From positions 1,225,369 through 1,289,368 of the forward strand of contig AP024596.1 of NCBI GenBank assembly GCA_019704295.1: a stretch of DNA of 64,000 nucleotides. The letters run 5' to 3'. This document shows, piece by piece, positions 25,069 through 61,836 of this stretch. Numbering within the stretch: position 1 is the stretch's first letter; each line of letters begins with the position of its first letter. Both the position numbers and the translations under genes were made by a program. This stretch comes from Sulfolobales archaeon HS-7 (lineage in GTDB: Archaea > Thermoproteota > Thermoprotei_A > Sulfolobales > Sulfolobaceae). The notes under the pieces were generated by a model. The model was not told where the DNA came from. It saw only the letters and a list, made by a program, of their open reading frames with translations, and made no database searches.

Positions 25069-25794
25069 ATGGAAAAGGTTTTAGGACCCCAAACAGAAGA
25101 GGGATTAAAGTATCTCTTTTCAGCAAATGCGGAAGACTACATGAGGTTATTATTAATATCCAAATACTTAGATGCAATGGGTATGAAAAAGGAGGCTGAG
25201 GCCTTTAGGGAGAAAGCAAACGTAGAGCTTGGTCACGCGAGTGCTATATTAAACACGTTAATAAAGCATTACGGGCTTACGGCAATGGTTCAAGACATGG
25301 CTAAAGAGGAGAGCGAGCAGCACGTTTCCGAGTACAATAAGGTAGCTATGGCCGCCAAAGCCGAGGGAAATACCGAAGTTGAGTCCATGCTCTGCTCCTT
25401 CTCCGAACAGGAAAAGGATATAGCTGAGACGATAAAAATGGGAGTAAAGAAGCTTGTCGAAGACATGGCTAAAGAGGAGAGCGAGCAGCACGTTTCCGAG
25501 TACAATAAGGTAGCTATGGCCGCCAAAGCCGAGGGAAATACCGAAGTTGAGTCCATGCTCTGCTCCTTCTCCGAACAGGAAAAGGATATAGCTGAGACGA
25601 TAAAAATGGGAGTAAAGAAGCTTGTCGAAGACATGGCTAAAGAGGAGAGCGAGCAGCACGTTTCCGAGTACAATAAGGTAGCTATGGCCGCCAAAGCCGA
25701 GGGAAATACCGAAGTTGAGTCCATGCTCTGCTCCTTCTCCGAACAGGAAAAGGATATAGCTGAGACGATAAAAAGGATTAATGTATCATCGTAA
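25069..25794 (+). CDS. Rubrerythrin-like ferritin-fold protein with a triplicated half-bundle
   Basis: The first 75 residues are helices A and B of a ferritin-like diiron protein (E22; E53-L-G-H56 as the ExxH pair). Residue 76 onward encodes helices C and D (KEESEQHVSEYNKVAMAAK and SFSEQEKDIAETIK), and this 56-residue unit is present three times, at 76-131, 132-187 and 188-235, the third truncated and ending in RINVSS. Single-copy relatives (rubrerythrin/sulerythrin type, ~130-150 aa) would stop after the first unit, so 241 aa is abnormal. The fourth helix lacks the usual ExxH histidine (EKDI). Family role: peroxide or iron handling in the cytoplasm. Whether the expanded protein folds is unknown. 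Two long antisense frames here are shadows of the repeat. Confidence 0.75.
   Translation: MEKVLGPQTEEGLKYLFSANAEDYMRLLLISKYLDAMGMKKEAEAFREKANVELGHASAILNTLIKHYGLTAMVQDMAKEESEQHVSEYNKVAMAAKAEGNTEVESMLCSFSEQEKDIAETIKMGVKKLVEDMAKEESEQHVSEYNKVAMAAKAEGNTEVESMLCSFSEQEKDIAETIKMGVKKLVEDMAKEESEQHVSEYNKVAMAAKAEGNTEVESMLCSFSEQEKDIAETIKRINVSS
25294..25774 (+). repeat. Exact 168-bp tandem repeat, 2.9 copies, in frame
   Basis: Copy 1 is 25294-25461, copy 2 is 25462-25629, copy 3 is 25630-25774 (145 bases). By direct reading the copies are identical at the DNA level, including silent positions. 168 is divisible by 3, so the frame is kept. Confidence 0.95.
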
Positions 25795-39037: not shown

Positions 39038-42000
39038 TCATATAACAATCTCGTATATCTGTCCATTACTGTTTAGCATATAACTGTTAGTCTGTAAAAT
39101 CACTGGCACCCAGGTGTTAAACCCATTAAATAGCAAGACCGGTAGTGAGGTTGACGTCATTGTTGTCTCATTAAAGGTAAGCGCTGGAAATCCTGTTTCT
39201 ACTCCTTCTAATGGGTATAGAGGTTCGGCATATGTAGGGGATACTACGTGACAAGCAGCGCCCAAAAACGAACTCGATAACGAATTGGGATAAAATATGT
39301 TGGAGCTTGAGGGTAGATAACCGTCGCTTGAAGACATGAACATTACAGGATATTGTCCCACACCGAAGACGTACGATGATTGTACACCTACGTACTTTGT
39401 GTGAATCTCGACGCCGGTACTGTTTAGAACTTGTCCTCCAATGAAGGGAATCTGTTCTCCTAATGATTGGTAAATGTATCCCTGAATCTCCATAGCGAGG
39501 TTTAAAATATTCGATTGTGCAGCCATTTGTAGGCTCGGATCGTTAAGACCGCTCATTCGATTCAGCTCGTTTAGCATTGCGTTAGAGGAATAATCTACAT
39601 CACTCTTTAACGTTAATAGTTGTTGAATATTTACCCTATAATCCTTAAAGGAAGTCAAATCGTTCATGGAGTTAATTATGTTATCAATTGACGACTCTTC
39701 TTGAGATATGCACGATTGTATTGAACCCGAGTTCTGCTCTGCTAACATGGAAAGTACTTTCTGTCCCGCCGTTTCTATTCGATTTACCGAGTTCATTGTT
39801 TGTAAATAAGCTTGATAAACTTGGTAACTTCCTCCATATCCAATACCATTTATTATGTTTCCGAAAGTACTCTCCTGGTCCATAAATGAGGATAGAAGCT
39901 GCTGATTTATACCGCTATATAGCGCATTCATCAGATATTCTCCTGACGGTAGTAAAGATGTATATCCTGCCGTGGAAAGAAGTAGACCTATATTACTACC
40001 TAAATTCGCCCAGTATTCGTTAATGTTCTGAGCGGTGTAATTAAGGGCTGAGATTGCGCCGTACTCTCCGATACCATTCCCAAACCATCCCATATCGCAC
40101 AAAAACGATGATAACCCAGGAACTCCCTCTATTTCACTAAGCGCCTTATATACTGAGGACGTTCCAACATACCCAGATCCAATATCCGACATGATAGGTT
40201 GTATACCAAGATCGGATGAAAACTCAAAGTAATCCCAAGGTTTAGGTGCGTTCGATAACTCCAGGAATGCCTGGATATTCTCTCCGTTAACTATAATTAT
40301 TGGAACGGGTACTGCGACTCCATTGGAGTTTTGTTTATATGTTATTGGAGTCGAAATGCTAATTTGTTCCTGGTATACGAAAGCTCGTCCATTATTGTAA
40401 TTAAGTCCAATTACCCCGATAGGAGAGTTTGAAGTTTGTGTTAAGCACAATCCTCCGTAGGAAAACCCGCTGACGTCTAGTTCAGCGATTGCGCCTGCAG
40501 GTATTCCGATTTTCTCTTTAGATGAAGAACTTAGCACGGAGCTTAACCCGGAGCTAGTCATGTTTATCTTGTACGTTTCTCCACCCTGTACAACAATTCC
40601 AGTAACATTCAGGAATGGTGAAAATATTGTTATATTTGCAGTCCAGTTTTCAAGTGAGGGCGGGATTTTTAGGAAATTGAATACAACTGATGTCGGATTT
40701 ATTACTGGTAACAATACTTCCTGAGAAAATTGTTCAAACGTCGAGCTAGTGTAGGATAAGAGATTTAGAGTTCCCCCAGTTCCATTCAGCAGCACCAGTG
40801 GACAATTCGAGGGCTCCGTAAAATTGCCCGTTATATTGGAGAAGGCGTTGTACGGATAGGGTTCTCCCTCAATTAACAGTAACGTGTTGGCTGGAAAAGT
40901 CAGAACATTTTCTGTAGACACTACGCATGACGACATGCCGTTAGAAACTAATACTATGCCGTTCATATTCGTACCTACAAATTCATTGACCTGTTTACTT
41001 CCCGAATACATCGCTATCACGTTAGTATTTCTATTTACGATTATTGATAGGAATGCGTACCTCGATGGTAAATTATTTACACTGGATGGAAGCTGTCCAT
41101 AGGACGAATATGTTCTGCTATATGTAACCCCGTTTACATTCCAACCGTTAGATGTAATAGAATTTATCCACGAATTGGAACTTATATTGAACTCATACTC
41201 ATAGGGAACGAACGCTACTCCCTTCTGTCCAGGATTAACGGAAATTGTTTCATTCGTTCCCGTCAACGCATTTATAAACGAGGCCTGTAGAAACGAATCT
41301 CCCTGACTTGCAAAGGTAACCTCCTCTATAGGTCTCATGTAAATATTTCCTCTGTAAACCGTATCAGAGGATGTCACAGATGAGCTCAATGTATTCGGCG
41401 TGAAGCACGTAAAGTTCCTGAACAAATTATTGGAAAATGTCCCAATTCCTAAGTAGTTTAGTCGGGCATTGTAGGTGGGAGTTATAAAGGTCCATGAGTC
41501 GTTGTAATTCGTGTAGCCTGGAATATTTGGTAAATTAACTGGGGGGGGATTAGAACTTGAGTAAGTGAAATTGGCCTCTGAAACGCCCGAGGCATAAACG
41601 TTCTGATTTGATGCAATATTTTTGAAAGTTATATGCATAACCTGGAATTTATCATTTACTCTAACTATATTGTTATATATTGCAATTTCCGTTATGATCA
41701 AAGGACCATCTGGTGGAATGAAAGCTGGAATGTAGAGAGTCCCAACATATCCTATAGGAAAGTTGTGTACATATCCGCACAAGTTGACGCAATTATCTTC
41801 AGCGAAGTATAAATAGATGATATCACCGTTATCCGTAAAACCACAAGGGATGGGAAGAGTGGCAGGATGAACAGAATAGCGTCCACGATAAGGTCCTGCC
41901 CACGATGACGGATAACTTGTCACACATCCTCTATCTGTACCGGAATCATAATATGTCACGAACGCAGGTCCATTAGCTAATTCGCTGAATGGGGGGTAAA

Positions 42001-43285
42001 TAGTTATCCCATATGCCAACCATGGACTTGGAAGGTATGAACTCCTCGACATATTGACATTACATATTCCGTCTTCTGGAAAACTAACACTTACGGTCCC
42101 TCCTAATGGATATCCAGGGGGATGATTAAATACGAAGTATATCGGATCAACGAACTCAGGAGGTGCCCCCGTAAGAGTAAACCACGTTTCAGGTTCTGGT
42201 AGAAAAGGTGGAGCACCTTCATCCAGATAGGTATTATGAGTTCCATAATGTGGAAATATTACCACGCGAGGTCGTATATTTGATATATATGGTACGCATC
42301 CTTTCCCTATGTAAACGACCACCTCGTTAGTGTCATTAGACGCATTAACATATTTGTAACTGGCAAACAGTGAACGTATTTCCCACTTTTCGAAATTAAA
42401 TCCGTGACCCGTCAGTCCAGTATCCGCTCTTGCCATTGCTTCCAAATTCAGAAGTGTTCCATTTGGGATTAGGAAAGTTTTATAATAATTTTTATAATTA
42501 TAAAATTCGGATATAGAAGGACGAATATAATACTGATTTCCTCCTGACGAATCGAGGTAACTACATCCAAAAAGTGATGGTATGCCAGGGTATATTGTTG
42601 GCACGCACGGAATGGGTGATATAAATACAACACAAATTGATAGATTTACGTTGGATTGTTGTTTTTGTATGAAGTTTTCCTGGCTTAAAAGCCCCATTTG
42701 ATTCTTAAGTAAAGATGCAATGCTTCCCTGTATCTGATTCTGATCGTTACCTAGTTTAAAGTATTGGGGAGTTGGAGGGGCGGGATACCAGAAAATTTTT
42801 CCTGTGGATGTTACGAATCCTACTACACCCGTAATGTAAGGCACGGCAATCTCTTCCCCAGGGTTGAGTAATAGTTTATTGTTAACATTTTGACCGTTGG
42901 TGAAGAATGTAAACGCGCTAGATAAGGGAAGACTGCACTGTCTCAATCCCTTAGGTATCTGCAGAGACGACGTAGATGATAATGATGCATAATACGGGAT
43001 GCATGAAGCAGGGTTGTTAAAATCTATTATTAAAGGCTGGGAATCTGGCGTCGAGTAATACATTATACCTACAACGCAAAATGGAACATTACCACTGTTT
43101 ACTAAAAATGCCAGAGTCCCATCTCCAAACACGTTACCTTCGGTTTGCGAGGCTTGAGATTCTGTGTAAAGAGAAACCTGTGAGGCCTGTAACGAACCCT
43201 GATACAAATATAAATAAGCTGCTAATGCGCTCAGAATGACTAACAACAATAAAGCGATCCCAATTATCCCCAAAACATCATTCAT
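39038..43285 (-). CDS. Giant (1,415-aa) surface protein with a minor-pilin-like head
   Basis: One N-terminal hydrophobic helix (residues ~5-28, LGIIGIALLLLVILSALAAYLY) is followed by a beta module (FLVNSGNVPFCVVGIMYY ... LNPGEEIAVPYITGVVGFVTSTGKIFWY) that parallels, in strand order and phrasing, the middle genes of the two pilin-like cassettes (NNGPIQTRITGIFAVC ... LSPQQSIVL ... VTMYGNVYY). The rest is a long Ser/Asn/Tyr-rich ectodomain with paired cysteines, and a helical segment near residues 1,110-1,320 before a final beta part. No C-terminal anchor. It follows the ATPase/platform genes on the same strand with its own TATA box (43312-43321). I infer a tip or adhesin subunit held by the pilus-like machine. 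No known family recognised. Confidence 0.75.
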   Translation of the reverse strand: MNDVLGIIGIALLLLVILSALAAYLYLYQGSLQASQVSLYTESQASQTEGNVFGDGTLAFLVNSGNVPFCVVGIMYYSTPDSQPLIIDFNNPASCIPYYASLSSTSSLQIPKGLRQCSLPLSSAFTFFTNGQNVNNKLLLNPGEEIAVPYITGVVGFVTSTGKIFWYPAPPTPQYFKLGNDQNQIQGSIASLLKNQMGLLSQENFIQKQQSNVNLSICVVFISPIPCVPTIYPGIPSLFGCSYLDSSGGNQYYIRPSISEFYNYKNYYKTFLIPNGTLLNLEAMARADTGLTGHGFNFEKWEIRSLFASYKYVNASNDTNEVVVYIGKGCVPYISNIRPRVVIFPHYGTHNTYLDEGAPPFLPEPETWFTLTGAPPEFVDPIYFVFNHPPGYPLGGTVSVSFPEDGICNVNMSRSSYLPSPWLAYGITIYPPFSELANGPAFVTYYDSGTDRGCVTSYPSSWAGPYRGRYSVHPATLPIPCGFTDNGDIIYLYFAEDNCVNLCGYVHNFPIGYVGTLYIPAFIPPDGPLIITEIAIYNNIVRVNDKFQVMHITFKNIASNQNVYASGVSEANFTYSSSNPPPVNLPNIPGYTNYNDSWTFITPTYNARLNYLGIGTFSNNLFRNFTCFTPNTLSSSVTSSDTVYRGNIYMRPIEEVTFASQGDSFLQASFINALTGTNETISVNPGQKGVAFVPYEYEFNISSNSWINSITSNGWNVNGVTYSRTYSSYGQLPSSVNNLPSRYAFLSIIVNRNTNVIAMYSGSKQVNEFVGTNMNGIVLVSNGMSSCVVSTENVLTFPANTLLLIEGEPYPYNAFSNITGNFTEPSNCPLVLLNGTGGTLNLLSYTSSTFEQFSQEVLLPVINPTSVVFNFLKIPPSLENWTANITIFSPFLNVTGIVVQGGETYKINMTSSGLSSVLSSSSKEKIGIPAGAIAELDVSGFSYGGLCLTQTSNSPIGVIGLNYNNGRAFVYQEQISISTPITYKQNSNGVAVPVPIIIVNGENIQAFLELSNAPKPWDYFEFSSDLGIQPIMSDIGSGYVGTSSVYKALSEIEGVPGLSSFLCDMGWFGNGIGEYGAISALNYTAQNINEYWANLGSNIGLLLSTAGYTSLLPSGEYLMNALYSGINQQLLSSFMDQESTFGNIINGIGYGGSYQVYQAYLQTMNSVNRIETAGQKVLSMLAEQNSGSIQSCISQEESSIDNIINSMNDLTSFKDYRVNIQQLLTLKSDVDYSSNAMLNELNRMSGLNDPSLQMAAQSNILNLAMEIQGYIYQSLGEQIPFIGGQVLNSTGVEIHTKYVGVQSSYVFGVGQYPVMFMSSSDGYLPSSSNIFYPNSLSSSFLGAACHVVSPTYAEPLYPLEGVETGFPALTFNETTMTSTSLPVLLFNGFNTWVPVILQTNSYMLNSNGQIYEIVI

Positions 43286-43656
43286 TCTGCCAAAAATTAA
43301 ATACTTAATGGATATTTAAACTTTGTTATTTGAAGATCATGACCTTTTTATTAAAAATTCCGTAAGTAAAGGCTAACATAAGCTCAATCCCTCAAAACTT
43401 CCCTAATTTACCTAAGTAATGTTAATGTTTTTTGAGGAAACTTCACTAAAGTATTTCAAATAGTATATATATATTCTTTCCTTTTTTTGGACTTTTATGT
43501 ATGAACAATTAAAGAAGTTCAAATTATAATTAGTCCCACCGATAACGCTAGTTATTCAAAAATTGGAAAATCGCCATTCTTAATATAAAAGGAGCCCCCA
43601 GAGAACTCAGGAAACATAAAAAAATAGCGGCGCGAACCCTTAAAGATAAATTGGCT
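43286..43656. promoter_or_regulatory. Gap with promoter of the giant surface protein gene
   Basis: About 370 bases. A minus-strand TATA box gtttaaatat at 43312-43321 lies ~30 bases before the ATG at 43285. A T/C-rich run (ttctttcctttttttgg, 43474-43490) may end the upstream transcript. Nothing else seen. Confidence 0.5.
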
Positions 43657-45807
43657 TTAAAGTAATGCTAACAAATGAAGAGCTAGTATTACTGAGGAAG
43701 AGAAACCGAAAGCCGATTGTAAGGCAGGTTTTATAAATGTGAATATTACGATGCTTATTGTTGAAACCGTAACTGTGCTCATAGCTAGCTTGGAATCAGC
43801 AATTGTTCCAGTAATAGCCTTGTTTAGTATTAAGCCTAAAATTATTGAGGAAATTTGAATGAATACATATACTATGTTGAAGTCTGAACTGTTTATCTGA
43901 GTGTTAAGGAAGGGGAGTCCCTGAGTGCTTACCCCTTGAAGCCCTGAAAATATCTGGTTTGAATTAAAAGAGGACAATAAAGATAGAGTTATTAATGAAG
44001 TTAAAGCAAGCAAAGCAGGCGTAATAATGGAGATTATTTTGTAGAACCTTAATCGCGCTTCTGCCTCCCTCTTAGCGTTAACATAAGTGGTTACGAAGCT
44101 ATGTATTTCCTCTATTAGGAGGGGAGAAATGTTTCCAGACTCGGTAAGTATTCCTAGGAGGAAAAAGATAAATTTTCCTAACCAACTAACGGTCCTAACT
44201 CTCACATTATTTAAAGTCCTACCTCTTTTTATTTGCATAGCTATGTTTTTAATAATTTTCGTGAAAGCCGGTTGATAGGTCTTTGACTCACTCCTATTTA
44301 TTATCGCTTTGGAGAGATCGTATCCTATTTTTCTGAATTCTGCAAGATCTCTTAGCATAGTTGGAAGCGAAGTCTCCACCTCCTTAATTTCGTTAAGCTG
44401 CGGTCTTACTTGTACATAAAGGAGGAGAAGGGGTACTATTACCGCCCCGTAAAGTGTAAGATATATAGGCACATTTGTAAGATATAATATACCTCCTAGC
44501 GCAATACCCAGAGCTACCGGAATGGTTAGATTGTATCTGACTTTATCGGGAGTTTTAGGTCTTACGCCCTTCGTCATGAAGTACAGCGCAAGTCCGAAGA
44601 GAAATGGTAGGACGAGTAGAAGATTAATGATTTGTGTCCCTCCTAGACCAACCAGGACTATAAAGATACTGGGGACGACTAAGAACAGAATCACGACGGC
44701 TTCACCCAAAGATGATATTCTCTCTGAAAACAACATCCACTTTAGCGCTAACCACTGGGTAAATTCCTTTTCCTTATCATTTAAATACGCCTCCAGATCT
44801 CCTCCACTTGTGAAAACAGCTGAATATCCGTATAGGAATGCGGAGTACTCCTTTGAAGTTCTCAATTCGGCCCTTTTTGACACAACTTCTAACATAGATT
44901 TCCCAAAAGTCATAATATCGCGAAGGAAAGCCGATGCTTCCATCTTAAAAGCAGTAAATACGTCAGTTTCCCTTATTTTTCTAAAGACGTATGTTATTGG
45001 TAGTCCCGATGACGATGCTATGGCCACAAGGGCAGCAAAGAACGGTAATTCGTAAAGGTTGAGTTCTCTGGCTTGCGATGCCTTAGAATATGTGTCAAGA
45101 TAAGGATAGAAGAAGAATAATGCGGGGATTGATAAGATGACTCCATAAACTATTAGAAACATTATCGGAGGGAACGGTAGAGTTATGCCGATTAAGGGAA
45201 GTCCGTAATTTACAAGTGCAAATATCCCAGCGGCCAAGATCACTGATACTGGAATGTAGTCTATTCCCGTGGCGCTGTAATCTATTATCTTGAAAACCAT
45301 GTCTTCGTAACTTCCAGCTACGAGAACGTTCTTCTCAATCTTCTTGACATACCATCTCACTAACCTCTGAAACCTCTTAGTACCCAACAATACCTTCGCA
45401 ACTTTCACCGGATATATTCCGTGCAATTTATTGACTTCCTGCTCGATTGCCCTTTTGTACTCAGGAAGACGGAACGTTGAGGCTATTACCTCGAAGATTA
45501 TAAGTCCTACAAAGGCCGCTACTACAGCCAGTCCTATTGTGTTTGCATAGAAAGGATTGTTAATAACTGCTATGAGGAAGTGATCTATCGGAATCAGGAA
45601 GAATGCAAGCACGACATCGAGTATTAGAAAAGCTAGGAGGAGAACGGTGTCCCTTGTTCGTGAAATAACAATAAGGAACAACATTAACTTTACGATGGGA
45701 TCGTTACCTACCATTTTGCTCTTCTTAGTAATGTTACTTTCCTCCTTCTCCTTGGGTTTCTTTTCCTTAGGTTTCATTAAATCCCTAAGTCCTGCCAACC
45801 CCCTCAT
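43657..45807 (-). CDS. TadC/T2SSF-type membrane platform protein with two domains
   Basis: A 716-aa polytopic protein, the membrane platform of a type IV pilus-like system. Two T2SSF-type units: the first around residues 255-360 (LPFFAALVAIASSSGLPITYVFRKI ... DLEAYL), the second around 490-630 (LPTMLRDLAEFRKIGYDLSKAI ... LIEEIHSFVTTYVNAKREAE), each followed by hydrophobic helices. The N-terminal ~40 residues are very Lys/Glu-rich. It is longer than archaeal platforms such as ArlJ or UpsF (roughly 480-500 aa). Overlaps the ATPase gene by four bases. Confidence 0.88.
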   Translation of the reverse strand: MRGLAGLRDLMKPKEKKPKEKEESNITKKSKMVGNDPIVKLMLFLIVISRTRDTVLLLAFLILDVVLAFFLIPIDHFLIAVINNPFYANTIGLAVVAAFVGLIIFEVIASTFRLPEYKRAIEQEVNKLHGIYPVKVAKVLLGTKRFQRLVRWYVKKIEKNVLVAGSYEDMVFKIIDYSATGIDYIPVSVILAAGIFALVNYGLPLIGITLPFPPIMFLIVYGVILSIPALFFFYPYLDTYSKASQARELNLYELPFFAALVAIASSSGLPITYVFRKIRETDVFTAFKMEASAFLRDIMTFGKSMLEVVSKRAELRTSKEYSAFLYGYSAVFTSGGDLEAYLNDKEKEFTQWLALKWMLFSERISSLGEAVVILFLVVPSIFIVLVGLGGTQIINLLLVLPFLFGLALYFMTKGVRPKTPDKVRYNLTIPVALGIALGGILYLTNVPIYLTLYGAVIVPLLLLYVQVRPQLNEIKEVETSLPTMLRDLAEFRKIGYDLSKAIINRSESKTYQPAFTKIIKNIAMQIKRGRTLNNVRVRTVSWLGKFIFFLLGILTESGNISPLLIEEIHSFVTTYVNAKREAEARLRFYKIISIITPALLALTSLITLSLLSSFNSNQIFSGLQGVSTQGLPFLNTQINSSDFNIVYVFIQISSIILGLILNKAITGTIADSKLAMSTVTVSTISIVIFTFIKPALQSAFGFSSSVILALHLLALL

Positions 45808-47429
45808 ACCCCTATGAGGTTTTTAGACTGTGAAGCAATTATCTGGTCTATTTGTGCAGGCTCCAAATAGTATAACCTAAGGTAACCTGCTAATTCGTTA
45901 TAACTTGATATCTTCATTTTCATAAGTGCCCTAAGGAACTCTACCCTTCTCTCTGCTTCATACTTCAATGTGGAGTCATCCCACGCAAGGTAAGTGGCAG
46001 CGTCTTTTAATTGATAAGAGTTTTGTAACACTTTGGAAATACTATTTGGTGTAGTTTCGTTTAGTACGGTATTGTATTCAAACACCTTCTGATACGTATT
46101 ACTCGTTCCCTGAGGAATGTTTTCCCATATAGTCATAATTCGTCTGTACTGTTCTCTAGTTTTGTAATCTATTAATCTGTTTACTGATACAATTGAGGAC
46201 AATAGTTGTTCAAATTCCCTTGCGGTCACTTCAGGCAATAACCCTAAAATCCTCGCCCTAACTTCTTCTGGGTTAGCACCGTGAAATGTGGTTATGCCTC
46301 CGTGACCTGTTGCAGAAGCCTGAACTAAATTACCCATTTCCGAACCTCTTACCTCTCCCACTATTACGTAGTCTGGCCTATACCTTAAGGATGTCTTAAC
46401 TAGTGCATCCATTCCAATTTCTTTCCCTGAGGCAAAAGCCACAGTTCTCGTGAAAAGTCTTATCCAGTTTTCATGTGGAAGTAGTAATTCAGGTGTATCC
46501 TCAATAGTGAGGATTTTCGCATTAGGATGAAGCAGCGTTAATAACGCGTTAAGGAAAGTGGTCTTTCCCGAACCCGTAGGTCCCACGATTAGAATGAATT
46601 TCTTAGCCTCGGCTAAAATCCATAGATATACAACCTCTGGTATACTCGTCATCCCCTTTTGTATTAAATCAATAATCGTAAAGGGTTTTTCTGGATGCTT
46701 CCTTATATCCATGGTAGAACCAGGGAGTGAAACCTCATTACCGTATGTCGTTGCAACTCGATGACCCTCCTTCAGAATGGCATCCTGTATTGGGTTCGCC
46801 AAGCTAATAGTTTTTCCTCCTCTTTCCATTATCTTTTCCACAAGGGACTTTACCTCAGTCTCGCTGTCAAATATAATGTTAGTCGGCAACCTGAGATATT
46901 TGGTAAAATACTTGTGTACAACTGTAACCGGCTTTCCAAATCCCGATATCTCAATTTCCTCAATGTTTTTGTCATAAATAAGAGGTGTTAGGATTGAATA
47001 ACTCATTTCCCTGATAACCATATATACTAACTTATCTATGCTTGAACCTTCCACTATTAGATCAAGATTCTCCGCAATATTTTGTAAATATTCTCTTATT
47101 TGTTTTTTCATTGCAAAAGGTGAAACTTTCTCATCATAAACGTCCCCCAAGATAGGTACAGACACATACATGTATTCTTGAATTTGGTTTATTATATCCT
47201 CCTCCTTTGGAAGAATGTTCGGCTCTTTTATAAAGTAGTATCCCCGACCGTTTATCTCCTTTATCGTTATTTTTACATAAGAAAGAATCGGATCTACTTC
47301 GCTAAGATCATATTCCGATAAAATTTTCCCTTCTGGGGGAATGCTCTTTACCTTCAAAATTTTCTCTGCGCCTGCATCCTCCTTATTCTTATCAAGAATC
47401 GTTTTCCTGAATACTGGAAACTTAACCAT
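45804..47429 (-). CDS. TadA/VirB11-type secretion ATPase
   Basis: A 541-aa hexameric motor ATPase for pilus assembly. Walker A LIVGPTGSGKTTFL near residue 285, Walker B region ILTIEDTPELLLP, the Asp box VIVGEVRGSEM and the His box SATGHGGITTFHGANPEEVRARI. The N-terminal ~200 residues are the usual archaeal N-domain (RGYYFIKEPNILPKEED). Not ArlI: no ArlH/ArlX-type neighbours. It drives the platform encoded next. A minus-strand TATA-like gtttatatac at 47461-47470 gives a leader of about 10 bases. Confidence 0.93.
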   Translation of the reverse strand: MVKFPVFRKTILDKNKEDAGAEKILKVKSIPPEGKILSEYDLSEVDPILSYVKITIKEINGRGYYFIKEPNILPKEEDIINQIQEYMYVSVPILGDVYDEKVSPFAMKKQIREYLQNIAENLDLIVEGSSIDKLVYMVIREMSYSILTPLIYDKNIEEIEISGFGKPVTVVHKYFTKYLRLPTNIIFDSETEVKSLVEKIMERGGKTISLANPIQDAILKEGHRVATTYGNEVSLPGSTMDIRKHPEKPFTIIDLIQKGMTSIPEVVYLWILAEAKKFILIVGPTGSGKTTFLNALLTLLHPNAKILTIEDTPELLLPHENWIRLFTRTVAFASGKEIGMDALVKTSLRYRPDYVIVGEVRGSEMGNLVQASATGHGGITTFHGANPEEVRARILGLLPEVTAREFEQLLSSIVSVNRLIDYKTREQYRRIMTIWENIPQGTSNTYQKVFEYNTVLNETTPNSISKVLQNSYQLKDAATYLAWDDSTLKYEAERRVEFLRALMKMKISSYNELAGYLRLYYLEPAQIDQIIASQSKNLIGV

Positions 47430-48856: not shown

Positions 48857-49249
48857 TTATTGTCTTAACGCATATAGGAGTTCTCTAAGAAGTTCAAGCT
48901 CCGCATTAACCTCCCTTTCTAAACTCCTTCTTAGAGGTAAAATTCTCTTTGTCGTGAACCTTAAGTGAAGAACTGTGTTATCGAGATAGGGAATAAGAAG
49001 GACTACCAACTGATCGAGTGTATAGTTATTCTTAGATATAATCCATATAATATATTGATCTTTCAGATGAAGTGTAGCGGTGACTTTACCGTTAATTAAA
49101 TAGGTGAGATTACTAATTTTACTGATTTCCTCAACTTCATAGAATAGTCTTAGACAACCCGAATTTAGGAAAAAGGATTGTAACTTCCTGTAATTATAAG
49201 GTAACTCTTTCTCAAGTATGATTTCTTTCACAGTATTATTTCCTGTCAC
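48857..49249 (-). CDS. Small protein of unknown function next to the pilin
   Basis: A 130-aa soluble protein (KELPYNYRKLQSFFLNSGCLRLFYEVEEISK, then beta strands VTATLHLKDQYIIWII, and a C-terminal helix RSLEREVNAELELLRELLYAL). No family recognised. It lies between the pilin and ATPase genes on the same strand, so a chaperone or regulator role for the pilus system is possible but unproven. Confidence 0.6.
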   Translation of the reverse strand: MTGNNTVKEIILEKELPYNYRKLQSFFLNSGCLRLFYEVEEISKISNLTYLINGKVTATLHLKDQYIIWIISKNNYTLDQLVVLLIPYLDNTVLHLRFTTKRILPLRRSLEREVNAELELLRELLYALRQ

Positions 49250-49570: not shown

Positions 49571-50044
49571 CTAATATATAGTATAGTGTTCTGATATCGA
49601 GGTCGACTGGCTTGTACCAGAAGCAGTCGTTCCAGTGCCAGAAATTTGTATCTCTACCGTGCTACCAGACGGTATATTTGCTCCTTGTTGTTGTACTAAG
49701 AACCACACAACCATTTGGTCGCCAGGATTTAATGTCCCGATACTAGTATTCGAAACCGGATTCACACTACCACTATAAAAGACGTTTCCAGTTAGACTAA
49801 GAGCTATGCCACCTGTATTTTGAACTGTGACGATTATATATTCGGTTTCTCCCCCCAATACTATTGCATTAACATTAAGAATGGAGAGTGATGCCTTCGC
49901 TGAATTACTTGTAAGGAGATGGGCTACATAGTATGCTACGAAAGCGGCAGCAACTATGACAATTAAGATCAACAACACCGTACTAATAATACCCTCTACT
50001 CCTCTTCTTACTTTCCTATTATTGTATCTTTTCTCTACTATCAT
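49571..50044 (-). CDS. Archaeal type IV pilin
   Basis: A 157-aa pilin with a class III signal: basic leader KVRRG cut before VEGIISTVLLILIVIVAAAFVAYYV, which then forms the assembly helix. The remaining ~110 residues are a beta domain rich in Ser/Thr/Gly (TVQNTGGIALSLTGNVFYSGS) typical of major archaeal pilins. PibD-type peptidase would process it. It has a strong minus-strand TATA box (50067-50077) at leaderless spacing. Likely main subunit for the ATPase/platform next to it. Confidence 0.88.
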   Translation of the reverse strand: MIVEKRYNNRKVRRGVEGIISTVLLILIVIVAAAFVAYYVAHLLTSNSAKASLSILNVNAIVLGGETEYIIVTVQNTGGIALSLTGNVFYSGSVNPVSNTSIGTLNPGDQMVVWFLVQQQGANIPSGSTVEIQISGTGTTASGTSQSTSISEHYTIY

Positions 50045-52115: not shown

Positions 52116-52619
52116 GTGAATAGAAGAGCAACATCGGTAATTATATCGACGGTCCTCCTATTATTGATCACTTTGGTAGCAATATCACTAGTCATGTATT
52201 ATTATGGATCGCAAATACCATCAGCGGTTAGCGTATCACTACAAAAGGAAAGAATTGCTATAAGGGAGGGAGGGCAGTTACTTAATTTGATTTACTTTTA
52301 CTGTAATAGTCCCTGTTACAGCGCTACGTTTTACGTTGAAGACACATCTTCACTACCAATATATATACAGGCGGTATGCCTATTGAGTCCTGACGGAACT
52401 GTAAGTCTATATACGGAAGGGTTAAATGTGGGTAATTCACTTAATGGTTTGGTAGAAATCTGTAACAGTAACGGACCATTACAGACGACTAATATTGATG
52501 GCGTTGAATATATAATCCTCTTTTCACACGAAATTTATTGGATTCATATAGATTATCCCGGAAATATTGCTTCAATGAAGCTTATTATCAAGAGTAATGG
52601 ATTTTATATTGAGGTGTAG
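52116..52619 (+). CDS. Cassette A, gene 1: pilin-like protein
   Basis: A 167-aa protein with a class III-type N-terminus (NRRATSVIISTVLLLLITLVA) and a short hydrophobic assembly helix, then GSQIPSAVSVSLQKERIAIREGGQLL, a beta domain with four cysteines (CNSPC, AVCLL, EIC), and an ending FYIEV. Its counterpart is the 173-aa protein at 61315-61836, sharing the phrases EGGQLL, ATFY-EDTS-LP-Y and SDGFY-EV. The GTG start fits the TATA spacing. The stop is directly followed by the next ATG. Confidence 0.82.
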   Translation: MNRRATSVIISTVLLLLITLVAISLVMYYYGSQIPSAVSVSLQKERIAIREGGQLLNLIYFYCNSPCYSATFYVEDTSSLPIYIQAVCLLSPDGTVSLYTEGLNVGNSLNGLVEICNSNGPLQTTNIDGVEYIILFSHEIYWIHIDYPGNIASMKLIIKSNGFYIEV

Positions 52620-53048
52620 TTGATGAGTATGAAGGCCCAAAGCTCTGTAATAGTTATGATTGCAGTAATGGCAATATTCTTTCTAGCGTTATCATCAATT
52701 GTTTATGTTCAAATGATAATGGGAACCATTACCAACGAGTATAAGTCAATATACCAGATCGATGTATTGAAGGGAAGGGAATCGCTACTTGTAACGGTGT
52801 ATCAAAGTGAGCAAGGCTATGTCCTTACTATTGTAAACAACGGTCCAATACAGACAAGAATTACCGGAATTTTTGCAGTATGTAACAGCGGTAATTATTT
52901 AATGAAATGTCCGTTGAATAACGGTGCAGATCAAACTTTGTCTCCTCAACAAAGTATAGTATTAACCTATAACCCGCCTAACCCAACTAACGTTGAGGCA
53001 TACATAGTAGTTACTATGTATGGAAACGTTTATTATGCAGCGACGTGA
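52620..53048 (+). CDS. Cassette A, gene 2: pilin-like protein
   Basis: A 142-aa protein with a class III-like N-terminus (MKAQSSVIVMIAVMAIFFLALSS) and then YKSIYQIDVLKGRESLLVTVYQS, a beta module NNGPIQTRITGIFAVC ... LSPQQSIVLTYN and the end MYGNVYYAA. It is a one-domain version of the head of the 1,415-aa protein. Counterpart in cassette B: 60863-61312. It overlaps neither neighbour by much, being bracketed by gene 1 and gene 3 on the same transcript. Confidence 0.82.
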   Translation: MMSMKAQSSVIVMIAVMAIFFLALSSIVYVQMIMGTITNEYKSIYQIDVLKGRESLLVTVYQSEQGYVLTIVNNGPIQTRITGIFAVCNSGNYLMKCPLNNGADQTLSPQQSIVLTYNPPNPTNVEAYIVVTMYGNVYYAAT

Positions 53049-53052
53049 GAGC

Positions 53053-53523
53053 ATGATGAGGAATAGAAAAGAGACTAGAGCAGTTTCAGAGGTTGTAGCC
53101 TCGGTTATCTTAATTTTAATAACTCTTTCTGCAATGAGTTATGTCATATATTACTTTATGTACAGATACTATGAAGAAGGAGCTGGACTAAATTTAGAAG
53201 CAAATAGACTAATATTATCGTCAGGGCAGATAATATCAACACTTTACGTTTATAATAACGGTACGGATTACGTTTTCTATTTTGAAGATATTGGTAATTT
53301 CAAATTGGATCTGCAGGGGGTATGTTACATGACCGGCGGAAAATTAGTTAACATAAGCGCTAACGCGCCTATATATAACTATTCTAGTGTGGTTAAATGC
53401 GCACCAACCACAATTTGGCCGCGAGAAGTTTACTGGATAGTTCTAAATGATGGTGAACTAAGCTCCTTTAATGGTATTCTCTATCTTAAAATAAACGGTG
53501 TATTCATACAGCTACAGGGATAA
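53053..53523 (+). CDS. Cassette A, gene 3: pilin-like protein
   Basis: About 156 aa from the ATG at 53053 (the open frame extends upstream to 53020, but the counterpart's length favours the inner ATG). Class III-type N-terminus RNRKETRAVSEVVASVILILITLSAMSY, then YYFMYRYYEEGAG, SSGQIISTLYVYNNG and YVFYFEDIGNFKLDL, and a two-cysteine pair. It starts five bases after the gene 2 stop and has a weak cgtgag Shine-Dalgarno-like site. Counterpart: 60338-60853. Confidence 0.8.
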   Translation: MMRNRKETRAVSEVVASVILILITLSAMSYVIYYFMYRYYEEGAGLNLEANRLILSSGQIISTLYVYNNGTDYVFYFEDIGNFKLDLQGVCYMTGGKLVNISANAPIYNYSSVVKCAPTTIWPREVYWIVLNDGELSSFNGILYLKINGVFIQLQG

Positions 53524-53866: not shown

Positions 53867-55244
53867 TTGTTTCGCCAATTTTACTAAAAATGAGACAATT
53901 TTTAAAACATGGGAAAATCTCGCTCAAGAGAGTAGAAATTAGCTAAAAATTCGGTTAAAGTAGGGAAAAGATCAACTTTTATCTCAGAGGAAGATGCGTA
54001 ACCTAGTTTTTATACGTATAGTAATACCTTGTGTATTATCAAGCGGGTAGAAATGAGGACGTTAAAGTTTAAGCGAGGGACTTGCAAAATCTTAGTATGA
54101 GGGAAATCAAGATTAGGAACAAGTCCCTCGCTAATAGTAGAGGAAGCGTTTAAGAAGATTTCCTCTAATCCCCGGGACATTATCAGGAGGAGTAAATCCC
54201 TCCTCTTGGGGAATAGAGGAAAGGATTACATTTCCCTTGTAAGACAAGGAAAAAGCTAGGTAAACTTCTGGGTAGAACCTTAGAGTTCTGGGGGCTGTGC
54301 TCGATCTTCTCTGATATCGTGCTTGGATTTGACGAGACCTTCCTAGGTTTGGGTGAGAAGGAGGCGGAAAGAGTGGGGGACAAACTCTTCTCGGGAAAGG
54401 CCAAGGTTAGATCCACGGATATCTTGTCTCCCGTGAGATGTAACGTGGTTACCCAATTCGCAGTTCCAGGGGATCAAAAGCCCTCAGAGTTTCTTCAAGA
54501 TTTCGTCAAGAAGGCTGTATAGTACATCAACTTGAGTTACGTTGTTGCTGACGCTGGATTCCTCAACCTCGAGATCGTCAAGGAGTTACCCGCTAAAACC
54601 GTGATCAGAGGGAAAACTAACTTGAAGGGAGTCAAGGAACTCTTTGCCCAGCCCCTTACCGTGAAGTACTACAGTTAACGATAGAACTTACGTTGCTTAC
54701 AGGGAAGTAAAGTACGAGGGACTCTACTATTACGACGTGATTTACGTGAAACACAAGGGGAAACCAACGCACTTCGTTTTCCTGTCCAACATCGAGGGAG
54801 ATCCCTACGAGTTGGCCGAGACCTGCAGGTCGAGGTGACAAATAGAGGAAGGGTTTAAGACGAGGAAGGCTAGAATAGAACTCATAAGGAGATTGTGCAA
54901 CAAGCTCTTCCTCTACCTGATCTAGCAATCCTCAACACAGCCTGGAACTTGTACCTCTTCCTCTCGTTTAACTTCAAGGCACCGAAAGAAAAGCCCGTTG
55001 CGTTTGACCAGTTCGTCAACCTCCTCTAGGCGTTTTCGAGCAGGGGATGGACTATGTACCTCGCTTTGAACTCGTGAGAAAATTTCAGAACTTATTGCGT
55101 TCCTTATCCTTAACTTGTAAAATATTCCGTATCTTGACTAAACATATGATATTGTTACGCCCCTTAAGTTGACTTAATCCTATATTTCTATGTATAAGTC
55201 ACCCTAATAATATCTTACAAGTATGAGATTTTTTGGCGAAACAA
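53867..55244 (+). mobile_element. Decayed insertion sequence, type X (copy 1)
   Basis: Terminal inverted repeats TTGTTTCGCCAA (left, 53867) and TTGGCGAAACAA (right, ending 55244) bound a ~1.4 kb element. Its transposase starts at atgaggacgttaaag and is broken by several stops; remaining pieces include LGFDETFLGLGEKEAERVGD and YEGLYYYDVIYVKHKGKPTH. The DDE type recalls IS4/ISH3-like elements of Sulfolobales, but I cannot name it. Confidence 0.75.
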
Positions 55245-56152: not shown

Positions 56153-58294
56153 ATGAATTCAGTGAAAGTAGTTATTGGAATAATTCTTATTATAATTTCT
56201 ATTGGTATGATGGAATTTCTTCCCACTACCGCTAATGTCAATCTTCAAATCCAACAACCAAATACTTCGATACTTGCTAAACTCCCAGCTTTCAGTTTAT
56301 GTCCGTATACTAATTTTACTTCTACTTATGGTGTTGAAAAATTCTATACTCCGACTTTTTATCGAGGTCTCATTTTCAACTATTCACTAAACAACTTGTC
56401 CGTGGTTACATCTAATGGAAAAACCATCATTAACAACCGTTTCAATCCACCACTACAATTCGGATGGGACGGAAACTACACATACGTTCTTAGCATAGGA
56501 CAGATACTCCTTTTAGATTCTTCTAACCTTTCTTATCGAATTGTTAATATCTCAGCATATGATAGGTTGGCTTTGGGGAAAGGTTTCGTTTTCCTGACAA
56601 TTAACTCATCCAGTTTTGCTCTTATTAACGGAATTTATATGACGGTAGTACCCTATGAATTCCAGAATTACTCTTCTGATGGAAACAACTATTTCGTCTA
56701 TCAACCTTATCCGGGATATTTCTTTATACCTAATGGTACCAATGTCTTCATTTATGCAGGTCTAAGACCTAGCTATAATATACGAAACGTTCTTTTCTAT
56801 TATAACGGTGGCATCCATTTCATTGCTTCATTTAAAAATTTTATTATTACTACCAATTCAACTTTCATATTATTTTCGAACGGATCTCTTGGTGAGGTAA
56901 ATCATCCCGTTTATTGCCCTATAAAGTATAATGGGGGGTTAGCTGGAATAGGCTTTAGTATTAAGGGAAACTCAGTTATACTTTCGTACTTCACGTGCTT
57001 CTTAGGACAAGTAAACGAGCGCGGAAAAATTCCAGTTCAAATCGGTCATTATAACTTTACAGAGAATTTGGGAGTATTTAAGGACTACTTATGTGCTTAT
57101 GAATACGTTATATCCCCTAATAATTCGACGCATGGAGAAATAGCGATAGCTTTCCCAAATTTATCTATAAATATTTTAAACATTACGAAATACGCCTCAG
57201 TTCATTTAGCGCTTAGCAACAATAAGGGATCGGCATACTTTGCATTCCCATGGAGTAAATCCTACGAAAGACTATACTACATATCTCCGCCTAATGTTAC
57301 GTACTTAGGCACATTTCTAAATGTCACGGAGATAGGAGATTTCTTCTTCGGGTTAAATAAAACGTCAGTAGGGAACATTTCAATTGAGTACAAGGGATCG
57401 TCGATTGTTAATGTCTTCCCATACTCGCTTTTCTTAAGGTCAGAAAATATTACCTTTTTTGTATCTATAGGAGATGGAAAAACCATAATATCGGAGTATT
57501 ATTCCAATGGGACTATCAACCAAGTTCAACTGAATTTCTCTGCGGTGAATGTAGGCGTATCATACGATGAATCGCTGCTAGTGGTGACAATGCCCGATTA
57601 TATCCCTTGGAATATTACATATCACCTAAATATATCCAGACGGTTTGGAGAGACGATACCGATAGGGCGCGAGGGCGTAGTTGTATGCGGAGACAACGTA
57701 TCGCAACCTATATTTTTTGAACCTGGATACGTGTGTGATTTAAATCAAAATGTGACGACCGGAATTGTGAAAGTCACTATACTGTATCAGTTCGGATTCT
57801 ATAAACGACTAGCCTACAGAACAATAAACACTTACTATACGGAGACAGGATCCTACCTAGTAGGCGTAAAAAGTAATGTAAGTAAAGTAAACGCAACTAT
57901 CACGGGAAACTACTTTGGTATAGTTCTAAATAGTACATTAAATTCTACTATCTTGCTTCCGAAGGGGAATTACTCCGTCGCGTTTTACCCTATTATTTCG
58001 AAACCGGTTACTTTAATACCGTCAATAAATGCCAGTTACATCAACTCGTCCGAAGTACTTTATGTGAAATATACACCATTCACCATAACAACAACCCATA
58101 GTACACATAGTATCATAACGCAGAGCTCTATCACGACTGCAACCTCACTTGCCTATACGACGGTAGGGGGGGTGTTAATAACAACTAATACTTCTCCCAT
58201 GACGTTAGATCTATCCAAATATTTACCAGTTATAATGGTGGTAATACTGATAATAGTAGCTTTTGTTGTATTTTTAGTACGAGGAAAAAGGTAA
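56153..58294 (+). CDS. Large secreted, membrane-anchored protein (713 aa) beside cassette A
   Basis: N-terminal hydrophobic helix (residues ~5-25) as signal, a very Asn/Tyr/Ser-rich ectodomain with regular strand pairs that looks like a beta propeller, a Thr/Ser-rich stalk near residues 640-690 and a C-terminal membrane helix ending VRGKR. Many glycosylation sites. No family recognised. Same plus strand as cassette A but 2.6 kb downstream, the space now filled with transposon debris. Confidence 0.75.
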   Translation: MNSVKVVIGIILIIISIGMMEFLPTTANVNLQIQQPNTSILAKLPAFSLCPYTNFTSTYGVEKFYTPTFYRGLIFNYSLNNLSVVTSNGKTIINNRFNPPLQFGWDGNYTYVLSIGQILLLDSSNLSYRIVNISAYDRLALGKGFVFLTINSSSFALINGIYMTVVPYEFQNYSSDGNNYFVYQPYPGYFFIPNGTNVFIYAGLRPSYNIRNVLFYYNGGIHFIASFKNFIITTNSTFILFSNGSLGEVNHPVYCPIKYNGGLAGIGFSIKGNSVILSYFTCFLGQVNERGKIPVQIGHYNFTENLGVFKDYLCAYEYVISPNNSTHGEIAIAFPNLSINILNITKYASVHLALSNNKGSAYFAFPWSKSYERLYYISPPNVTYLGTFLNVTEIGDFFFGLNKTSVGNISIEYKGSSIVNVFPYSLFLRSENITFFVSIGDGKTIISEYYSNGTINQVQLNFSAVNVGVSYDESLLVVTMPDYIPWNITYHLNISRRFGETIPIGREGVVVCGDNVSQPIFFEPGYVCDLNQNVTTGIVKVTILYQFGFYKRLAYRTINTYYTETGSYLVGVKSNVSKVNATITGNYFGIVLNSTLNSTILLPKGNYSVAFYPIISKPVTLIPSINASYINSSEVLYVKYTPFTITTTHSTHSIITQSSITTATSLAYTTVGGVLITTNTSPMTLDLSKYLPVIMVVILIIVAFVVFLVRGKR

Positions 58295-58433: not shown

Positions 58434-59967
58434 TGTTAAGCCAATTTTACTAAAAATGAGACAATTTCTAAAACATAGGAAAATTCCGCTCAAAAAATAG
58501 AAATTAGCTAAATTTCCGTTGAAGTGGAGAAAGGATAGATTTTTATCTTAGAGAAAGGCCCGTAACTTAGTTTTTACACGTATAGTAATACCTTGTGTGT
58601 TATCAGGTAGGTAGAAATGAGAACGTTGAAGTTTAAGCGAGCGATTTCCTAAATCTAGGTATGAGGATAAGCAAACTAGGACAAGTCCCTCGCTAATAGT
58701 GGAGAAAGTGTTTAGGAAGATTTCCTCTAACTTCCGTGACATCATCAGGAAAATTAAATCCCCCGTCCTGGGGAATAGAAGGAGGGACTACATTTCCCTT
58801 GTAAGATAAGGGAAAAAGCTAGGGGAACTATTAGGTGGTACCTTCGAGTTCTGGGAACTGTGCTTGATCTTCTCTGAGACCGCGCTTGGTTTCGACGGGA
58901 CCTTCCTGAGGGTAGGTGAGATGGAGGTGGAGATAGTATGGGACAAACTCTTCTCAGGAAAGGTAAGTGCCGCGGATCTCTTGTCTCCCGTGAGGTGTGA
59001 CGTGGTTACCCAATTCGCGGCTAGAGGAGATCAAAAGCTACCTGAGTTTCTTCAAGAATTCATTAACAAGGCTGTACAATACGTTAAACTGAGTTACGTT
59101 GTTGCAGACACTGGATTCCTCAACCTCGAGTTACTCAAGGAGTTACCAGCGGAAGCCGTGAACAGGTAAAGAACAATTTCCACGGGGAAAACACGTAACA
59201 TTAAGGATGAGGATAGCGAGTCCCTACAATGGTTTACTCTTAAAAGGTGCAAGTTTACAAAGAGTAAGAACGTGGAGAAATTCAACGTTGACTTAGGTAC
59301 CGTTCTAAGCTTGCTGCTCGCATAGCCGTGTTAGAGACGAAGTGTATAGTGTCTTAAAGGGAGGGAAGGAACTCTTTGCCCAACTCCTTACCGTGAACTA
59401 CTACATAGTTAAGAACAGAGCATACGTTACCGACAGGGTGATAGAGTACAAGGGACTCTACTATTACGATGTGATTTACGTGAAACACAAGGAGAGACCA
59501 AAGCACTTTATTTTTATATCCATCATCAAGGGAGATCCCTACATGTTGACCAAGACCTACAGGTTGAGATATTGAGCAAGAATTTAAGGCGAGAAAACGA
59601 GGATTGAACTCATCAGGAGGTTGTGCAATAAACCCTACCCGATCTACGCGCTCCTCGACACTTCCTGTAACTCGTATCTCTTCCTTTCGTTTAACTTCAA
59701 GGCAATGGGGAAAAGCCCCTAGCGTTTGAATGATTCGTCAATCTCCCCTAGGCTTTTTCCAGCTTCAGGGTAGACTACGTACCTCGCTTTGACCTCGTGA
59801 GATAAATTCAGAACTTCTTGTGTTTGTTACTATTAACTTGAAAAATATATCAGATTTTTACTAAACATATCATATTGCTACGCATCTTGAGTTAACTTAA
59901 TCCTATATTTTCATACACTAATTACCCTAATAATATCTTACAATCATGAGATTTTTTGGCGAAACAA
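58434..59967 (+). mobile_element. Decayed insertion sequence, type X (copy 2), carrying a nested fragment
   Basis: Left end gccaattttactaaaaatgag and right end ttggcgaaacaag match copy 1; the transposase start (atgagaacgttgaag) is broken. Longer than copy 1 because of the ~190-bp insert at 59169-59358. Downstream transposase piece YKGLYYYDVIYVKHKERPKH parallels copy 1. Confidence 0.75.
59169..59358 (+). mobile_element. ~190-bp internally deleted IS110-like insert
   Basis: Left part tttccacggggaaaacacgta resembles the IS110 end at 38318; right part catagccgtgttagagacgaagtg parallels the IS110 other end (catagctatgttagaggcgaagcg). The middle encodes the last residues of the IS110 type (ASPYNGLLL). 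Absent from copy 1 of IS type X. Confidence 0.55.
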
Positions 59968-60337: not shown

Positions 60338-60853
60338 TTATCCAACTAACCGTATGTATACTCCACTTATGTTCAGGTAAAGTATACCTCCAGTGTTCTG
60401 AGTTATTCCTCCGGAAGCCCCTATAGGAACGACTAACCAATATATTACCCTGGGATATATCGTTAGGGGAAAAGTCACTTGTTGTTTATTAATTGAGTTA
60501 TAGCCCTGAGAATAATTACATATATAATAGGTTCCCGTTAGCGGGGATAGTTTCCCGGTTTTAGGATTATACAGTAGAATATTGCTCACGCGTACTAGAA
60601 AATTTCCAACATCTTCAAAATAATACACGTAGTAACTACTGTTGCTATATACGTTAAGCGTTACTATTATTTTTCCCGAACTTATTATTGATTTTTCAAC
60701 TGAGGATGAGATCCCCGCTCTATCGACGTAATATTCCCTAAGGAAATAGTAGTACGCATATCCCATCGCCATAAGGGTTATCAATATGAGTAATACCGAT
60801 GCAACTGTTTCTGATACGGCGACTCTGCTTCCATTTTTCTTTTCGACTCTCAT
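60338..60853 (-). CDS. Cassette B, gene 3: pilin-like protein
   Basis: A 171-aa counterpart of cassette A gene 3: GSRVAVSETVASVLLILITLMAMGY as class III-type helix, then YYFLREYYVDRAG, SSGKIIVTLNVYSNS and YVYYFEDVGNFLVRVSN, then the wall of a beta domain with two cysteine-free strands and an end NISGVYIRLVG. Last gene of the minus-strand cassette, 9 bases after gene 2. Confidence 0.82.
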   Translation of the reverse strand: MRVEKKNGSRVAVSETVASVLLILITLMAMGYAYYYFLREYYVDRAGISSSVEKSIISSGKIIVTLNVYSNSSYYVYYFEDVGNFLVRVSNILLYNPKTGKLSPLTGTYYICNYSQGYNSINKQQVTFPLTIYPRVIYWLVVPIGASGGITQNTGGILYLNISGVYIRLVG

Positions 60854-60862
60854 CCGATCACC

Positions 60863-61312
60863 CTATATCGAACTATAGTACTCATTTCCGTACATGGTTG
60901 TCACTATAATTCCCTGTAAATTGGGGTATTCTGATAAGTTAATGATAGTTGTCAACCTCTGTTGAGGGCTAATACATCTGCCCACCAAATTACTGGTTAT
61001 AGCTATGAGAGATCCGTTTTGAACACCATTAACCTCTGAAACGCCGAAAATCCCGGTGATTTTAGTTTCTATCGGTCCGTTATTAATTACGTTAACTACA
61101 ATTGCTGGAGAACCGTCAACCGTTTCCTCGCACAGTATAACTAATAAGCTCTCTCTATGCTTTAATACCTTCACTTCATCTATACACTTATATTCGTTGT
61201 TCACTTGAGATATTATCATCTGAGCATAAAGTATTGACGATAAGGTTATAAGAAATATTCCAATTACGGCTATCATAACAATTATTGAACTTTGGGCTCT
61301 CTTGATTGACAT
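60863..61312 (-). CDS. Cassette B, gene 2: pilin-like protein
   Basis: A 149-aa counterpart of cassette A gene 2: KRAQSSIIVMIAVIGIFLITLSS, CIDEVKVLKHRESLLVILCEE, NNGPIETKITGIFGVS, LSPQ-like SPQQRLTTI and the end TMYGNEYYSSI. Shares with the 1,415-aa protein the same head strand order. Starts just after gene 1's stop. Confidence 0.82.
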   Translation of the reverse strand: MSIKRAQSSIIVMIAVIGIFLITLSSILYAQMIISQVNNEYKCIDEVKVLKHRESLLVILCEETVDGSPAIVVNVINNGPIETKITGIFGVSEVNGVQNGSLIAITSNLVGRCISPQQRLTTIINLSEYPNLQGIIVTTMYGNEYYSSI

Positions 61313-61314
61313 GG

Positions 61315-61836
61315 TTACACCTCCACGTAGAATCCATCACTCTTAAACAACAGTTGGTTTCCTACTACTTTTCCGTTTATCAGCACTTTTGCCCAATACA
61401 CGATATTAGGCAACAGAAGAATATAATTATTACCGTTAATGAAAATGGGATCTACCTGACCTTTATTATCACAAAAGGTTATCGTACCGTAATACCGCGA
61501 GCTACTTGTTGACCCTAGGTTAGTAATTGAAAGGGGTAAAAGTTCCTTGCTACCGTTTCCCATACACGCAGCAAGAACGTATACAGGTAAATTCGACGTA
61601 TCCTCTATGTAAAAGGTGGCATTATATTGACATGGATTTGTGGTAGAATTGTAAAAGTAAACCACTGTAAGGAGTTGTCCTCCCTCTTGAATTATTTCCC
61701 TCTCTTTCATTAACATACCACTGACAGCTGCAGGAACTCGCGAACCGAAATAATAAAGCACGAATGACATAGCTGCTAATATAATAAGTATTAGAAGCAT
61801 GGTGGATATTAGTTCTGAGACTCCTCTGTTTAACAT
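61315..61836 (-). CDS. Cassette B, gene 1: pilin-like protein
   Basis: A 173-aa counterpart of cassette A gene 1 with the best class III site of the set (LNRG before VSELISTMLLILIILAA). Then GSRVPAAVSGMLMKEREIIQEGGQLLTVVYFY, cysteines in NPCQYNATFYIEDTSNLPVYVLAACM and ITFCDN, and the end SDGFYVEV. The ATG at 61836 follows a TATA box (minus strand gcatatatattccc, 61856-61869) by ~26 bases, so the cassette is leaderless. Confidence 0.85.
   Translation of the reverse strand: MLNRGVSELISTMLLILIILAAMSFVLYYFGSRVPAAVSGMLMKEREIIQEGGQLLTVVYFYNSTTNPCQYNATFYIEDTSNLPVYVLAACMGNGSKELLPLSITNLGSTSSSRYYGTITFCDNKGQVDPIFINGNNYILLLPNIVYWAKVLINGKVVGNQLLFKSDGFYVEV

Follow-up and report, generated by a model that had tools for sequence, protein, structure and literature searches.

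The gene at positions 39038-43285 (minus strand) of the window, i.e., the whole stretch of 64,000 nucleotides from a heat-loving archaeon that was analysed, encodes a protein of 1,415 residues (P0001), in which a large ectodomain is fused to a head that appears to be pilin-like, and it lies in a locus of the Bas (bindosome) type. The reading that joins these observations, for which the chances are judged about even, is that P0001 would be the giant, lineage-specific counterpart of a protein of ~510 aa encoded behind basF in Saccharolobus-type genomes, and would act as a membrane anchor of the Bas machinery.

The Bas-type locus and its giant protein

The features of the locus are as follows:
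39038-43285, minus: giant protein P0001 with a pilin-like head, a 1,415-aa open frame (relatives P0002, P0003, L012 and L013)
42776-43285, minus: head of P0001, residues 1-170, an N-terminal helix and a BasB-like beta module (hhalign against the head proteins behind basF and against BasB)
40658-41368, minus: residues about 640-876, the best-conserved ectodomain part common to the giants (alignments)
39416-40243, minus: more helical C-terminal section, residues about 1015-1290 (hydropathy and helix propensity, low-grade evidence)
43313-43320, minus: TATA-like TTTAAATA, 28-35 bases ahead of the P0001 ATG, read from the sequence
43657-45807, minus: BasF-like platform protein (TadC/T2SSF; NF053673 321 bits, cut-off 1300; next best UpsF, 225)
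45804-47429, minus: BasE-like secretion ATPase (NF053672 396 bits, cut-off 1000; next the archaellum ATPase, 263; tree)
49571-50044, minus: BasC/UpsA-like pilin of 157 aa, matched weakly (NF046073 E 7e-5, NF053671 E 8e-4; pilin N-terminus TIGR02537)
52116-53523, plus: cassette 1, with BasA-like (52116-52619), BasB-like (52620-53048) and BasA-like (53020-53523) pilins (NCBIfam E 2e-8, 1.4e-12 and 4e-9)
60338-61836, minus: cassette 2, with BasA-like (61315-61836), BasB-like (60863-61312) and BasA-like (60338-60853) pilins (BasB model E 4e-5; alignments)

The preliminary description had placed the protein beside its own ATPase and platform, and TadA-type and TadC-type genes are indeed found immediately upstream in the same orientation, P0001 being the next gene behind BasF at a distance of 371 bases. 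In the ATPase tree, the ATPase of the window, the second one of its genome, that of genus g3 and BasE of Saccharolobus fall together (94/95), with the Ups group separate from them. The NCBIfam scores for BasE, BasF and the pilins are far below the cut-offs, and the set in the window is thus taken to consist of diverged relatives of the Saccharolobus Bas set. With BasE/BasF and BasA/BasB as the best matches, the membership of P0001 in a Bas-type locus is well supported by sequence comparison. In keeping with this, sugar-binding proteins with class III pilin-type N-termini, the known cargo of the bindosome, are encoded in the same genome (the one in L068 starts MIRVKSNKKGLTGTQTAIV, and that in L069 is similar in kind). 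Between BasE and the BasC-like pilin lies a 130-aa ORF with a GTG start and no NCBIfam match (48857-49249, minus). Elsewhere in the window is a 241-aa rubrerythrin-like ORF (25069-25794, plus), in which a unit of roughly 50 residues recurs in tandem about three times with almost no change. At 54319-54522 and 58864-59169 (plus), an ORF fragment (FDETFLGLGEKEAERVGDKLFSGK) and its near copy look like the remnants of decayed insertion elements.

The reading frame of P0001 is real, open from 43285 to 39038, and its layout agrees with the order that had been noted at the outset, i.e., an N-terminal hydrophobic helix, a linker and a beta module, with the two quoted motifs, VNSGNVPFCVVGIMYY and NPGEEIAVPYITG, at residues 62-77 and 141-153. 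The ectodomain (roughly 1,200 residues) is probably extracellular and becomes more helical toward the C-terminus, in line with the helical section described earlier; by hydropathy, this section opens with a membrane-like hydrophobic stretch in P0002, P0003 and L012, which is absent from P0001. Residues about 640-876 of the giants contain motifs resembling divergent InlB B-repeats, and the corresponding PF18998 gave a sub-threshold match (E about 0.007-0.01) in P0003 and L012 only, with none in P0001 itself. Glycosylation sequons are not enriched in P0001 (20 versus 21 expected), and its relatives differ in this. Searches of Pfam and NCBIfam with the giants returned no family above cut-off and no recognised adhesin domain, and the PDB sequence search gave no convincing match, leaving the earlier suggestion of a tethered enzyme without support. 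Matches of the giants to CDH, alpha-catenin and an enterotoxin were judged to be due to chance.

The other surface proteins of the region have ectodomains unrelated to the P0001 type. Among them are three large secreted proteins with hydrophobic C-terminal ends (13215-16145, minus; 56153-58294, plus; and L007:2562-4844), none related to the ectodomain of the giants; the first two have no NCBIfam match and are rich in sequons (41 versus 16 and 36 versus 11 expected).

The genome from which the window was taken (2.15 Mb, single contig) encodes three giants, P0001, P0002 (about 1,436 aa, at L007:7374) and P0003 (1,300 aa, at L008:9735), with pairwise identities of 27-31% over aligned columns. It contains two BasEF pairs, the second in a complete Bas-type set (BasF, BasE, BasA, BasB and BasC at C1:1600665-1605833, i.e., L065:10632-15833) about 8.4 kb from P0003, and no archaellum ATPase was found in it. 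All three giants are near Bas genes, but P0002, P0003 and the giants of genus g3 are not directly behind basF and are found near cassettes instead. In g3, G011 encodes a relative of 1,178 aa and G019 one that is truncated by its contig, while no giant relative was found in the third member, G002. A contig scan with the giant heads gave one locus, in Sulfolobus sp. UBA167 (L015, on the same contig as L013). The relatives of the window genome belong to one family, of the Sulfolobaceae type.

The head, its homologues and their company with BasEF

An AlphaFold model of the head, built from a two-row alignment, had a pLDDT of 41.8 and was too poor for use, so the fold of the head was deduced from profiles; the BasB model reached a pLDDT of 83.8, with the Pyrobaculum type IV pilus subunit 8fk7 as its best PDB match. 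The proposal that the head copies the second protein of the pilin cassettes was borne out over the first ~170 residues. The profile of the giant heads matched that of BasB at an hhalign probability of 93.8% (E 1.7e-7), mainly through the helix and the first strands (7% without the helix), and when the Saccharolobus heads were added, the match ran from the helix to the last strand over 121 columns at 94.7% (63% without the helix). With these heads included, the head–BasB score was 31.3 versus 19.6 for the best of 60 column shuffles, and 51.6 versus at most 38.3 when the helix was kept and only the ectodomain was shuffled, i.e., above all 60 shuffles each time. The controls BasA, BasC, ArlF and ArlG all scored below BasB against the head profile. 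For ArlF and ArlG the probability was about 0.5% each, and homology of the head to these two proteins was rejected on that ground. Compared with BasB, the alignments show an additional stretch of roughly 50 residues around positions 78-130 of the P0001 head, which by these profiles would be pilin-like and related to BasB.

As for relatives beside TadA/TadC genes, a search for which had been suggested in the preliminary description, each of the seven Saccharolobus-type genomes (g6) encodes a same-headed protein of 506-523 aa immediately after basF, the gene having been read directly in each. The Bas proteins of these genomes are of the Saccharolobus type and exceed the NCBIfam cut-offs in six of the seven. 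The heads of the giants and of the short proteins match at 95.6% (hhalign E 1.2e-8, 174 columns) and still at 89% without the helix, and their N-termini read M[NDK][DE][VIL][LI]G[LIM] and MQD[ST][LI]GL[LI]A, respectively. Their ectodomains, by contrast, are unrelated (profile match 0.5%), i.e., a common head is joined to different outer parts. By its size and place, the short protein is probably arCOG08524, a ~500-aa secreted protein of the bindosome locus proposed to be an "adhesin or S-layer protein" (Makarova et al. 2016, PMC4858521). P0001 had been called an unusual giant minor pilin, and it is giant, with a head that resembles a pilin; however, with a shorter same-headed homologue at the same place beside the Bas-type machine in 7/7 genomes, it is better described as the enlarged form of a known but little-studied locus component than as an isolated oddity, and the canonical motif of a pilin is absent (see below).

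With Bas-type BasF defined as scoring over 300 bits, it is present in 10 of 31 Sulfolobaceae genomes (that of the window, G011, G019 and the seven of g6), and the head protein was found in all ten. The other 21 gave no match with the giant or head profiles, the phylum head search being a sample, in which five of the seven Saccharolobus-type genomes are absent among the matches listed; G002 has neither a Bas-type BasF nor a head protein. The ten Bas-positive genomes fall into three genera and hence represent few independent events.

These results bear on the possibility that P0001 is an unrelated surface protein, in which the likeness of the head would be that of any N-terminal hydrophobic helix and the proximity to Bas genes accidental. 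The partly helix-driven match of the giants alone to BasB would fit this, as would two borderline matches of the head profile in the phylum search, G129:C11 (L100:7949-9298, E 2e-4) and G119:C36 (E 9e-4), both confined to the N-terminal part. The G129 match, the one inspected, is a sugar-binding protein, which indicates that helix composition can produce a match and calls for caution with helix-driven ones. However, the giant and short heads match without the helix, the head accompanies BasEF in 10/10 genomes, and the chance that, in a genome of 2.15 Mb, all three giants would lie no farther than about 10 kb from Bas genes is about 3e-5 by simple arithmetic. An unrelated protein is thus already largely contradicted and very improbable.

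The N-terminal signal

The canonical class III motif, as defined in PMC4307647, occurs in 10/12 BasB and 10/12 BasA proteins (20/24 together) and in none of the twelve head proteins (0/5 giants and 0/7 short homologues). BasC carries the strict motif in two of eight cases and K/R before the helix in all eight; ArlF has the canonical motif in 0/4 and ArlG in 1/4. P0001, P0002, P0003 and four short homologues that were inspected each have a TATA-like element about 30 bases before the start (the two g3 giants less clearly so), which argues against a missed upstream start. The absence of the canonical prepilin cleavage motif makes an ordinary minor pilin less likely than a membrane-anchored role. 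On the other hand, a relaxed motif with S at -1 is found in six of the seven short homologues (D-S at residues 3-4) and G6 is invariant in 12/12 head proteins, preceded by L/I, so an unusual, non-canonical cleavage may still take place.

Such a cleavage, perhaps after G6, would be part of an alternative in which the processed head caps a short Bas pseudopilus and the ectodomain extends beyond the S-layer for attachment as a tip adhesin, like the large minor pilins or PilY1-type proteins of bacteria. The pilin-like head close to BasB, the invariant G6, the proposal of Makarova et al. for the short form and the reported flexibility of PibD, which is said to cut very short signals (PMC4187195), speak for a tip adhesin. 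It is nevertheless considered rather unlikely, given the missing canonical motif and the L/I before G6, the lack of a recognised adhesin domain in the giants, and the statement in a review that a Bas filament has never been observed (PMC4187195).

Alternatively, the giants could be cargo, i.e., the Bas system would display them as binding proteins or enzymes in the manner of the sugar-binding proteins. Bindosome cargo is built in this way, with a pilin-like N-terminal anchor and then a large ectodomain (PMC2910488), and three divergent paralogues in one genome, together with the difference between short and giant forms in their ectodomains, would be in keeping with this. Yet no binding-protein or enzyme family was found for the giants, the class III signal of known cargo is absent from them, and every Bas genome found has a head protein along with BasEF, all of which makes a cargo role distinctly improbable.

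A possible anchor of the bindosome and its comparison with known systems

Set beside the locus type, the head homology, the co-occurrence and the motif absence, all obtained by computation, the membrane-anchor reading would run as follows. The N-terminal helix would place the head of P0001 into the membrane, next to BasF and the pseudopilins BasABC. As it has no canonical prepilin cleavage site, P0001 probably does not pass into a filament and would stay in the membrane as an anchor, from which its roughly 1,200-residue extracellular part could reach into the S-layer. In this way, it might tie the bindosome assembly to the cell coat, comparable to ArlF/ArlG in the archaellum. The latter resemble archaellins but lack their signal peptide, and ArlF binds the S-layer (PMC8978795); in S. 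solfataricus, deletion of basEF alters the S-layer, and SlaA was found together with sugar-binding proteins (PMC4187195). The motif absence, the ArlF/ArlG precedent and these S-layer data together suggest a bindosome anchor, but non-processing, S-layer contact and anchoring are inferred.

The broader proposal, put forward tentatively and with somewhat less than even confidence, is that the bindosome has its own stator-like anchor, which would be uncleaved and unrelated to ArlF/ArlG in sequence, with a constant head and swappable ectodomains, and which in some Sulfolobaceae would have grown to >1,100 residues so as to bridge the pseudoperiplasm up to the S-layer. Reviews credit the bindosome with five genes, and if the proposal is true, such an anchor would be a missing Bas component in Saccharolobus too. 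The co-occurrence of the head protein with BasEF and its resemblance to an uncleaved pilin make it a candidate for the link between bindosome and S-layer, testable in Saccharolobus, a genus with genetics. Bas loci were confined to S. solfataricus in a 2010 review; Bas-type loci are here extended beyond this species, with duplicated pilin cassettes and giant ectodomains.

Among the known proteins, BasB shares with the head of P0001 a helix and a beta module, but it is a single domain with the cleavage motif in most cases, whereas P0001 has the extra stretch, the giant ectodomain and no canonical motif. The arCOG08524-type protein has the same head, the same place behind basF and the same co-occurrence with BasEF, and differs in its length and in an ectodomain unrelated to that of the giants. 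ArlF and ArlG are likewise pilin-like, lack K/R before the helix, are encoded beside a TadA/TadC-type pair and have a proposed link to the S-layer (PMC8978795); however, they are archaellum proteins of 154-169 aa with no giant ectodomain, and their profiles show no similarity to that of the head. UpsC of Saccharolobus islandicus (PMC11868833), compared here by its description, is another pilin-domain protein of greater length, a recent addition to a type IV pilus system of the Sulfolobales, but it belongs to the Ups system, is encoded away from the operon and is regarded in the original study as a processed pilin.
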